From the NCBI GenBank assembly GCA_001724855.1, contig MEED01000033.1, positions 1 to 49,940 on the forward strand: DNA of 49,940 nt, in the 5' to 3' direction. The stretch's first letter is position 1. Each line of letters starts with the position of its first letter. The notes below the pieces were generated by a model. It was given only the letters and a program-made list of their open reading frames with translations. It searched no databases and was not told the DNA's origin. A program made the translations under genes and the position numbers. This DNA comes from Lautropia sp. SCN 69-89. GTDB lineage: Bacteria; Pseudomonadota; Gammaproteobacteria; Burkholderiales; Burkholderiaceae_E. Positions 44,294 through 45,970 of this stretch are shown piece after piece.

Positions 44294-45970
44294 ATGACCG
44301 AACAGCGCGCAGCCCACGCCGCTCACTCTCACCATCAGGCCCACGCCCACGAGGCGCACGTGCACGACGACCACGGTCATCCGCACCATCGCGTGCATGC
44401 ACCGTCGCGGGCGCTCGGCTGGTCGGTGCTGATCGTGCTCGGCTTCGGCGTGCTCGAGATCGTGGTGGGGCTGGTCAGCGGCTCGCTGGCACTGGCCTCC
44501 GACGGCGTGCACATGCTCACCGATGCGGCCGCGCTCGGCCTCGCCTGGACCGCGCAGTGGGTGGCGCGGCGCAAGCCCGCGCCCGACATGAGCTTCGGCT
44601 ACGGACGCATCGAACCGCTGGCGGCACTGGTGAACGGCCTGTTCTACCTGGCGGTGCTCGGTTTCATCGTGCACGAGGCGATCGACCGGATGTATACGCC
44701 GCACGCGATCGACCCGACGGTGGCATTGCCGGTCGCAGTCTTCGGGCTGCTGGTCAACGCCGCGGTGTGGCGACTGCTGCATGGCGATCGGCACGAACTG
44801 AACACGCGCGGGGCGTTGCTGCACGTCATCGGCGACTTCGCCGGCTCGCTGATCGCGATCGTCGCGCTGACGGTGGTCTGGTTCACCGGCTGGACGCTGG
44901 TCGACCCGCTCCTGACGCTGGCGATCTCGGTGCTGCTGCTGGTCTCGACGGTACGGCTGCTGCGCGCGAGCGGCCGGGTGCTGATGAACGCCGCGCCCGA
45001 AGGCGTCGACCCGGCGGCGGTCGAGGCCTCGCTGTGCAGTCCGGCCGGGGTCGGCTCGATACACGACCTGCACCTGTGGTCGCTCGGCGACGGGCGGCCG
45101 GCTCTGTCGGCGCACCTGGCGATCGACGACATTGCACACTGGCCTCGCATACTCGAGGAACTGAGGCGGACCATGGACGAGAAGCACGGTATCCGGCACC
45201 TGACCCTGCAGCCCGAGGTCTCGCTCGATGCCGCGCTCGCGCGGCTGCGCGAGGTGGAGGCGGAGCGCGACCTGCAGCGCGACATGGCCTTGCGCTTCGA
45301 GCGCGAGCTCGAGTCGCAGCGGCGCGAACTGGGCGCGGCGGTGCAGCGTGAGCTCGGCGAGCCGCTGGCCGGACTGCGCTCGATGGCCGAGACCCTCGAG
45401 ACGCGTCTCGCGCGGCGCGAGCCTTCGCTGTCGGAGCTGGCGATGCTGGTGCGCCGCAGCGCCGACTCGATGGCCGCGTCGATCCGCGCGCTGCTCGCAC
45501 GGGTGCGCAGCCACGAGATGCAGGGCGAGTCGCTGCCCGACGGACTTCGCGCGCTGGTGGCCGACTGGCGGCTGCGTCATCCGGGGGCGCGCATCGAGCT
45601 GCTGCTCGAGCCCGCCGAAGACCGCAGCTTCGGGCTCGGCGAGCCCGCGGTCGAGACGCTGGCCTGGCGCATCGCCGATGGCGCGCTCGGGCGGGCCCTG
45701 GGTGAGCGCGGCGCCGACCTGGTGGTCGTCTCGGCGATCCGCGAGGACGACGAGCTGCGGCTGCAGGTGAGCGACGACGGCGAGCCGTGGAGCGCCGGCG
45801 ACGATCGCGGTCCGGCGGGCGAGGCGTTCGACGAATTCGCCCGGCGCGTCGCGGCCTGCGGTGGCCGCTGCACGATCGCCCGCGGCGAGGCCGGCGGCAC
45901 CGAAGTGCGCGTGCGGCTGCCGTGGCCGGGGCTGCGCGAAGAGCGGAAACAGGGCGCTTCGCCTGTATAA
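44294..45970 (+). CDS. Cation diffusion facilitator fused to a degenerate histidine-kinase-like tail
   Basis: A 558-residue two-part protein. Residues 8-35 hold 13 histidines. Residues 40-230 are the six-helix CDF exporter core, with metal-site residues in [10 protein letters not shown] (D70, H73, D77) and HVIGD (H177, D181), the ZitB/CzcD pattern for Zn2+/Co2+/Cd2+. Residues 235-308 are the usual cytoplasmic CDF domain. The extra C-terminal 250 residues have a coiled coil (310-350), a HisKA_3-like helix pair (about 345-405), and an HATPase_c-like region (about 415-545) ending in [14 protein letters not shown], as in NarX-type kinases. The phospho-His ([11 protein letters not shown]) and N-box Asn are missing, so it is probably not a kinase. 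One continuous frame with uniform codon use; stop overlaps the pyrG -10. Confidence 0.9.

Follow-up and report, generated by a model that had tools for sequence, protein, structure and literature searches.

The DNA analysed here (the window) is a stretch of 49,940 nucleotides from Lautropia sp. SCN 69-89; features lie on its forward (+) strand unless stated otherwise. An uninterrupted frame of 558 codons, from an ATG at position 44294 to a TAA at 45968–45970, encodes a CDF exporter that runs on into a kinase-derived tail (44294..45970), a call based on the frame itself and on orthologous fused frames in relatives. Third-position G+C is 0.86–0.97 throughout, from the CDF part to the CA part. 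The gene is flanked upstream by a divergent gene on the reverse strand (43535..44230) and downstream by a gene in the same orientation (45994..47685). We take these to be a scoA-like CoA-transferase subunit gene and pyrG (CTP synthase), respectively; they serve as synteny anchors. A TATAAT hexamer at 45966..45971, in which the TAA doubles as the fused gene's stop codon, is at a guess the -10 element of pyrG. This candidate box provides the stop codon of the gene upstream of pyrG in 14 of the 24 genomes where both can be placed, including genomes with the fusion (the window genome, G000, and G341), with the exporter only (G002, G020) and with the tail only (G003, G342). A TACAAT at 44282–44287, six bases 5' of the ATG and the same in G009 and G014, suggests a candidate promoter that would give a leaderless or near-leaderless transcript; in G010 and G012 the box sits further upstream.

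Residues 1–308 constitute a complete Zn-type CDF exporter as judged from sequence, with export and metal specificity predicted. A His-rich N-terminal tail (aa 1–39, 44294..44410; 13 His within the first 45 residues) is followed by the transmembrane domain (aa 44–231, 44423..44986; Pfam Cation_efflux PF01545, 153.6 bits with a cut-off of 26.6, E 7.3e-45) and the cytoplasmic dimerisation domain (aa 236–308, 44999..45217; ZT_dimer PF16916, 34.6 bits with a cut-off of 26.7, E 1.9e-8). NCBIfam model TIGR01297 matches at 255.6 bits (cut-off 82.35) and ZitB at 1e-56 with 192 bits, short of the 408 that this model requires. Zn-type CDF proteins carry HxxxD metal-site motifs in helices 2 and 5. The corresponding sites (H73-x3-D77 and H177-x3-D181) are in place, and the metal-site residues D70/H73/D77 (SDGVHMLTD at 69) and H177/D181 (HVIGD at 177) are all present. 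An earlier sequence-only reading had proposed a single 558-codon fused frame with a complete, N-terminally His-rich CDF protein carrying these same metal sites; Pfam and the motifs confirm the exporter, and the frame recurs in relatives. The exporter half shares its transmembrane domain, HD-HD site and ZT_dimer domain with Zn exporters of the ZitB/CzcD type, but those stop after ZT_dimer, and the listed CDF matches from outside the family end at or before position 349 of the 548-position model.

Homology of the kinase-like tail

The remaining part of the protein comprises a linker with a presumed coiled coil (aa 309–341, 45218..45316), a degenerate DHp helix pair of the HisKA_3 type (aa 342–405, 45317..45508) and a degenerate HATPase_c/CA domain (aa 406–544, 45509..45925). 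The coiled coil was called by eye and aligned to the signalling helix of an intact kinase (G021, see below), with spacer lengths as additional evidence. Both kinase domains were delimited from Pfam, the alignment, a table of key residues and hhalign, and the CA domain from NCBIfam as well.

Taken alone, the window protein stays under the Pfam cut-offs for the tail (HisKA 21.5 of 26.9 bits, HATPase_c 13.6 of 26.4 bits), with E-values, below gathering scores, of 2.4e-4 and 0.094 in the whole protein and of 8.3e-5 and 0.014 for the tail by itself. NCBIfam UhpB matches residues 9–239 of the 254-aa tail at 7e-13 and 48 bits, the equivalog cut-off of 408 being far above this; NarX and MctS rank behind UhpB and are likewise far below their equivalog cut-offs. 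By sequence, its best PDB match is a histidine kinase, albeit a weak one (0.0016). Profiles are more telling. Combined into a profile, five window-type tails align to four ordinary kinases from the same order across 216 columns (hhalign 99.7%, E 7e-26); when eight family tails, some of them intact, are pooled in the same way, the PDB matches by sequence are VraS, DosT/DevS and DesK (best 3.8e-11). Pfam scans covered two of the eight fused proteins, that of the window genome and that of G341, a genome of another genus. In the 561-aa G341 protein, Cation_efflux, ZT_dimer, HisKA_3 (24.8 bits, cut-off 24) and HATPase_c (36.8 bits, cut-off 26.4) are all above the Pfam cut-offs. The UhpB match, the hhalign comparison with ordinary kinases and the PDB profile matches make it secure, at the level of sequence, that the tail of ~250 residues is homologous along its length to HisKA_3 sensor kinases of the UhpB/NarX/DesK type; together with the G341 Pfam matches they bear out the HisKA_3/HATPase_c origin that the sequence-only reading had assigned to it.

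The same site in related genomes

A family search with the window protein covered 74 genomes. The same fused frame is present in G009, G014, G006 and G013, at 75–88% identity to the window protein; G001 has a more diverged version with a Gly/Asp-rich linker, and the G341 protein is 54% identical. In all, the fusion is found in eight genomes including the window's own, seven of which (the five window-type genomes, G001 and G341) encode the order CDF-CTD-coil-DHp-CA in one frame, while the eighth (G005) is frameshifted in the tail. The G005 locus (L072:6409-7138) has a single frameshift in the DHp part, with two frames meeting near tail residue 53, and this may be either an assembly error or a true break. 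A scan of genome contigs with the tail returned five loci, those of G006, G014, G009, G005 and G013, from Burkholderiaceae or Burkholderiales metagenome assemblies. An assembly artefact or chimera is ruled out by the recurrence of the fused frame in seven genomes, one of them from another genus.

The surroundings of pyrG were read at 41 sites, comprising 40 other loci and that of the window. Eight carry the exporter only (G002, G010, G012, G020, G035, G340, G349, G350) and ten the tail only (G003, G007, G008, G034, G299, G345, G342, G023, G026, G030); in G030 the tail adjoins pyrG, with scoA ~2.8 kb further away and a thioesterase-like gene in between. Four sites are empty, with scoA beside pyrG and neither half present (G019, G344, G339, G022), and four further genomes (G330, G331, G332, G032) have, judged from coordinates alone, a scoA–pyrG spacing of 82 bases. 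Ten of the 41 sites are rearranged or cut (six of genus g15, namely L094–L098 and L103; L101 and L102; and the contig ends L092 and L093). Either half is dispensable, the exporter standing alone in eight genomes and the tail in ten, which counts against the functional reading that we favour below. The sequence-only reading had named orthologues split into two separate genes as grounds for doubting the fusion; at none of the 41 sites, including the ten rearranged or cut ones, do both halves occur as separate complete ORFs, which also rules out that two genes were mis-read as one.

Further afield, no additional fusion was found among the matches listed for 399 genomes of the order, with at most three candidates scored per genome; apart from those of G000 and G014, the listed matches end at or before model position 349 or start at 306–309 (G034, G299). 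Nor was one found in 369 genomes of the class and 398 of the phylum at a strict threshold of 1e-97, at which weak cases can be missed and which one ordinary CDF protein of the class also passed. Among 72,556 plasmid records, none of the 1269 with a match reaches 80% coverage, and the best (72%) is a CDF protein running into a neighbouring SIS-domain gene. A different CDF fusion was seen in genus g46 of the same order: at L112:2158-4023 (G431), a 622-aa frame encodes CDF and ZT_dimer domains followed by an alpha/beta hydrolase (Abhydrolase_1, 7e-17). At least six g46 genomes have open frames of 628–647 aa at the CDF gene; two of these loci were read (L112 of G431 and L113 of G066), and one was scanned with Pfam.

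Loss of catalytic residues and history of the fusion

In the sequence and order of its DHp and CA parts, the tail resembles HisKA_3 kinases of the UhpB/NarX/DesK-VraS group. Unlike these, the window protein lacks the phospho-His, the phosphatase Asp/Gln, the N box and the G2 box, and no regulator was found near its gene. The phospho-His position is occupied by Q351 and the phosphatase Asp/Gln positions by R352/E356; the N-box Asn and His have become R467 and E471, and the G2 box is gone. D494, the D-box Asp, is retained, as is the final Gly pair. The replacement of the His and the N-box Asn, which the sequence-only reading had reported alongside a recognisable D box, is thus real in the window protein, but the loss of catalytic residues is lineage-specific and does not extend to the whole family, which includes His-less and fully intact relatives. 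A functional kinase or phosphatase in the window protein is rejected from residues Q351, R352, E356, R467 and E471. Two roles that the sequence-only reading had entertained for the tail fare poorly here: signalling by phosphotransfer is excluded for the window protein because the phospho-His is missing, and ATP binding is unlikely, given that the N box and G2 box are lost, even though D494 remains.

Across 18 tails of the family, the phospho-His is retained in two (G021, G345), while the ATP pocket is whole in six (G021, G345, G299, G342, G341, G034) and decayed in twelve. Since four tails (G299, G342, G341, G034) have a whole pocket without the His, carrying Q, N, R and N at that position, the His was probably lost first and the pocket afterwards. 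The G345 protein (L087) is a soluble 287-aa polypeptide encoded at the same site without a sensor domain; it keeps the His, the N-box Asn and the G boxes, has a His at the phosphatase Gln position, and may be an orphan kinase core that is still active. Three of the His-less tails (G299, G342, G341) retain the Asp and Gln that HisKA_3 kinases use in dephosphorylation. A fused protein like that of G341, with Arg in place of the His but Asp, Gln and the whole ATP pocket in place, might conceivably act as a monofunctional response-regulator phosphatase on an exporter, as the His is reported not to be needed for NarX-mediated dephosphorylation (PMC5231405). We regard this as improbable even for G341, for which no cognate regulator is known, and it is inapplicable to the window protein because Asp and Gln are replaced there (R352, E356) and the pocket is decayed.

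The decay is selective, with ATP-pocket columns lost and the DHp-CA scaffold retained. When 21 pocket columns and the 29-column GLRALxxDW block, both hand-picked after the alignment was seen, are compared for identity to the intact kinase of G021, the pocket falls well behind the block in G000 (0.29 vs. 0.59), G001 (0.14 vs. 0.69) and G003 (0.24 vs. 0.69), which is not the case in G345 (0.71 vs. 0.59) and G341 (0.67 vs. 0.66). Among the five fused window-type proteins, mean identity is 0.92 in the block, 0.80 in the coil/DHp part and 0.66 in what used to be the pocket. Such a pattern is expected of a scaffold that persists after its chemistry is gone, but it falls short of proof of function because other lineages have dropped the tail or the exporter.

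Over the ten pairs of five genomes, from which the frameshifted G005 was excluded, tail dN/dS (NG86) is 0.17–0.38, compared with 0.15–0.30 for the transmembrane part and 0.11–0.48 for the CTD; YN00 gives 0.11–0.24 for the tail (ten pairs) and 0.03–0.07 for the transmembrane part (computable in five of the ten pairs). With dN/dS below 0.4 but higher than in the transmembrane part, the tail is constrained, yet less so than the exporter, and the DHp-CA scaffold of the window lineage is under purifying selection that is clearly weaker than that on the exporter. By NG86, the tail exceeds the transmembrane part in eight of ten pairs, which we count against our preferred functional reading. A kinase core under selection without its catalytic residues is the pattern that characterises a histidine pseudokinase, and by sequence the tail shows it. 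Could the tail nevertheless be a leftover of an old kinase, still in frame with the exporter by chance? Its absence from the eight exporter-only sites, its faster evolution relative to the exporter, the frameshift in one of eight fused copies (G005) and the failure of the G026 protein, the most diverged tail-only protein scanned, to match Pfam any longer would all fit such neutral decay. However, the frame is open in seven of eight fused genomes, dN/dS is well under 1, and the 29-column block is far better conserved than the former pocket (0.92 vs. 0.66 mean identity in the five fused proteins), making chance retention rather unlikely.

The probable source of the tail is still visible in G021, which has a 462-aa kinase adjoining scoA with HAMP, HisKA_3 and HATPase_c above the Pfam cut-offs and with intact motifs (RDLHDDLGQHS, QEAVTNAVRHS, DDGRG, GRGLVGM). 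The G021 contig stops right after the kinase and pyrG begins another contig, so that the kinase is only presumed to adjoin pyrG, a point against the explanation that we favour. In a tree of the tails, the 18 family members separate from four other kinases (100/99) and G021 is the first branch; the other 17 group together (100/96), with mostly weak deeper forks. The HAMP-proximal signalling helix of G021 aligns without gaps with the coil that follows the CDF domain of G341; the CDF part therefore occupies the former place of the sensor and HAMP. Relics indicate that each half was lost from an ancestor that had both. The tail-only protein of G342 begins with a ZT_dimer stretch (Pfam 0.0018, below cut-off) and has the same 38-residue spacer before the DHp part as G341; blastp of its first 80 residues (composition correction off) finds every one of the 15 CDF proteins in the set, at E-values no worse than 1.2e-5 and down to 3.8e-14. 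Conversely, exporter-only G340 retains ~50 residues of the tail C terminus in another frame (2.8e-6 to G341), overlapping the end of the exporter frame and extending to pyrG. The start of the tail-only protein of G003 (L059; RFG...QAQ) shows a weak alignment, not significant alone, to the last part of the cytoplasmic CDF domain; it is possibly a further CDF relic.

While these relics favour one ancient fusion, several independent fusions of neighbouring genes, a history compatible with any function, would account for two other observations. Forcing the fused tails into a single clade is rejected (p-AU 1.5e-65), and the CDF-to-DHp spacers differ: one way of counting gives 22 residues in the five window-type proteins, 38 in G341 and G342 and 66 in G001. 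However, loss of the exporter half, as documented by G342, would give the same paraphyly, and a clade uniting the fused and the free tails of genus 1, nine in all, passes the test (p-AU 0.117). In the CDF tree, to which G005 contributed its CDF part alone (it was left out of the tail tree), G341 and G340 are sisters, followed by genus 4 and then genus 1 with G001 at its base; the main groups agree with an unrooted tree of four anchor proteins, and the differences within genus 1 concern weakly supported forks. Finally, both halves as separate complete neighbours were found at none of the 41 sites. In our judgement, a single old fusion from which one half or the other was lost several times is much to be preferred, and independent fusions are an unlikely alternative history.

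Possible role of the tail

With ATP binding improbable and phosphotransfer gone, the readings left from the earlier, sequence-only proposal are a structural or allosteric tail and a docking pseudokinase; whether the tail tunes transport or docks a partner is a matter of inference from sequence. We give a probability of about 0.5 to the first, in which a Zn-type CDF exporter would use what was once the DHp-CA core of a HisKA_3 kinase as a dimer clamp or allosteric module acting on export. In this view, an orphan kinase had its sensor and HAMP exchanged for the CDF part, with the junction at the signalling helix and a transceptor layout as the outcome, and in the window lineage the kinase would then have become a module without catalysis that the exporter carries. 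A common two-fold axis could run through the CDF dimer and the four-helix bundle of the DHp part, such that metal-driven movement of the CDF cytoplasmic domain would be mechanically coupled to the coil and the DHp bundle. The cytoplasmic domain of the CDF protein MamM is described as a dimer whose conformation shifts when metal binds and which has been proposed to prime transport (PMC3962391), and in DesK the signal switch is placed in the coiled coil above the DHp domain (PMC5231405). A CDF dimer extended by a DesK-like coil could transmit movement in either direction. Since no output chemistry is left, action of the tail back on the exporter is favoured; with phosphate transfer gone, the dead kinase would set the conformation for export and hence its threshold. 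A point against this is that the kinase domain of the transporter-kinase CbrA is reported to have no significant effect on transport kinetics (PMC7096432).

The docking alternative assumes that the tail binds a response regulator or pairs with an active kinase in mixed dimers, so that the CDF part would be a metal-gated sensor and the output gene regulation. HisKA_3 kinases usually have an adjacent response regulator, although this is not obligatory. As the sequence-only reading had remarked, there is none here: a search with a single regulator as query, backed by a positive control, turned up no response-regulator-like ORF in the window or at seven related loci, and none of the 32 Response_reg matches listed of the genome's 35 is on the window contig. 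These 35 matches, together with three other HisKA_3 matches in the window genome, could nevertheless supply partners elsewhere. Precedents exist for both ingredients: transporter-kinase fusions in CbrA (PMC13022988) and Ks-Amt5 (PMC5764959), and dead kinases that signal in DivL (PMC4211667) and in ChrS_CA-fs, described as heterodimerising with HrrS (PMC9491836). Against docking, the Asp and Gln next to the His are replaced in window-type tails, residues of which, in DesK, the Asp is reported to contact the regulator and the Gln to position water (PMC5231405). We therefore rank a docking pseudokinase as possible but clearly behind a tail that acts on the exporter, and ahead of a neutral relic.

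How does the window protein compare with these systems? CbrA of Pseudomonas (SLC5-STAC-PAS-DHp-CA) likewise has an N-terminal transporter and a kinase core in one polypeptide (PMC13022988, PMC7096432), and Ks-Amt5 of Kuenenia stuttgartiensis, an Amt-histidine kinase, is described as a kinase that took over a transport protein as its sensory module (PMC5764959). CbrA, however, is an active kinase that phosphorylates CbrB and its SLC5 part takes up L-histidine, whereas the window protein is a CDF exporter with its catalytic residues missing. Ks-Amt5, too, is an active kinase and is reported to bind ammonium without translocating it (PMC5764959), whereas the metal-site residues of the window CDF are complete. 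The one-polypeptide layout of such transceptors is present in one frame in seven genomes of our family, but not their phosphotransfer output, as the residues for it are missing in the window protein. DivL and ChrS_CA-fs, which have a regulatory role (PMC4211667, PMC9491836), share with the tail a non-catalytic kinase core; unlike the window protein, they are not known to be joined to a transporter. Transporter-kinase fusions and histidine pseudokinases are therefore already known, the former being called rare by the authors of the CbrA study (PMC13022988). A CDF-kinase fusion was not found in the open-access literature, searched by titles and abstract openings, and the CDF exporter in a kinase-fusion role and the dead kinase on an exporter, neither of which appeared there, seem to be new.

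Tentatively, the family may record the birth of a metal-export transceptor, in which a CDF protein replaced the sensor of an orphan kinase, the core passed through a metal-gated, His-less, ATP-binding, dephosphorylating state such as that of G341, and the window lineage then reversed the direction, the output domain becoming an input that regulates the exporter. At a single chromosomal site, related genomes carry a kinase whose motifs are intact, a soluble core in which His and Asn survive, intermediates that have lost the His but keep the pocket whole, and both fused and unfused forms in which decay is complete. Should the interpretation hold, this site would allow direct tests of what the cytoplasmic domain of a CDF protein can pass on to a kinase core and of how a dead core serves an exporter.
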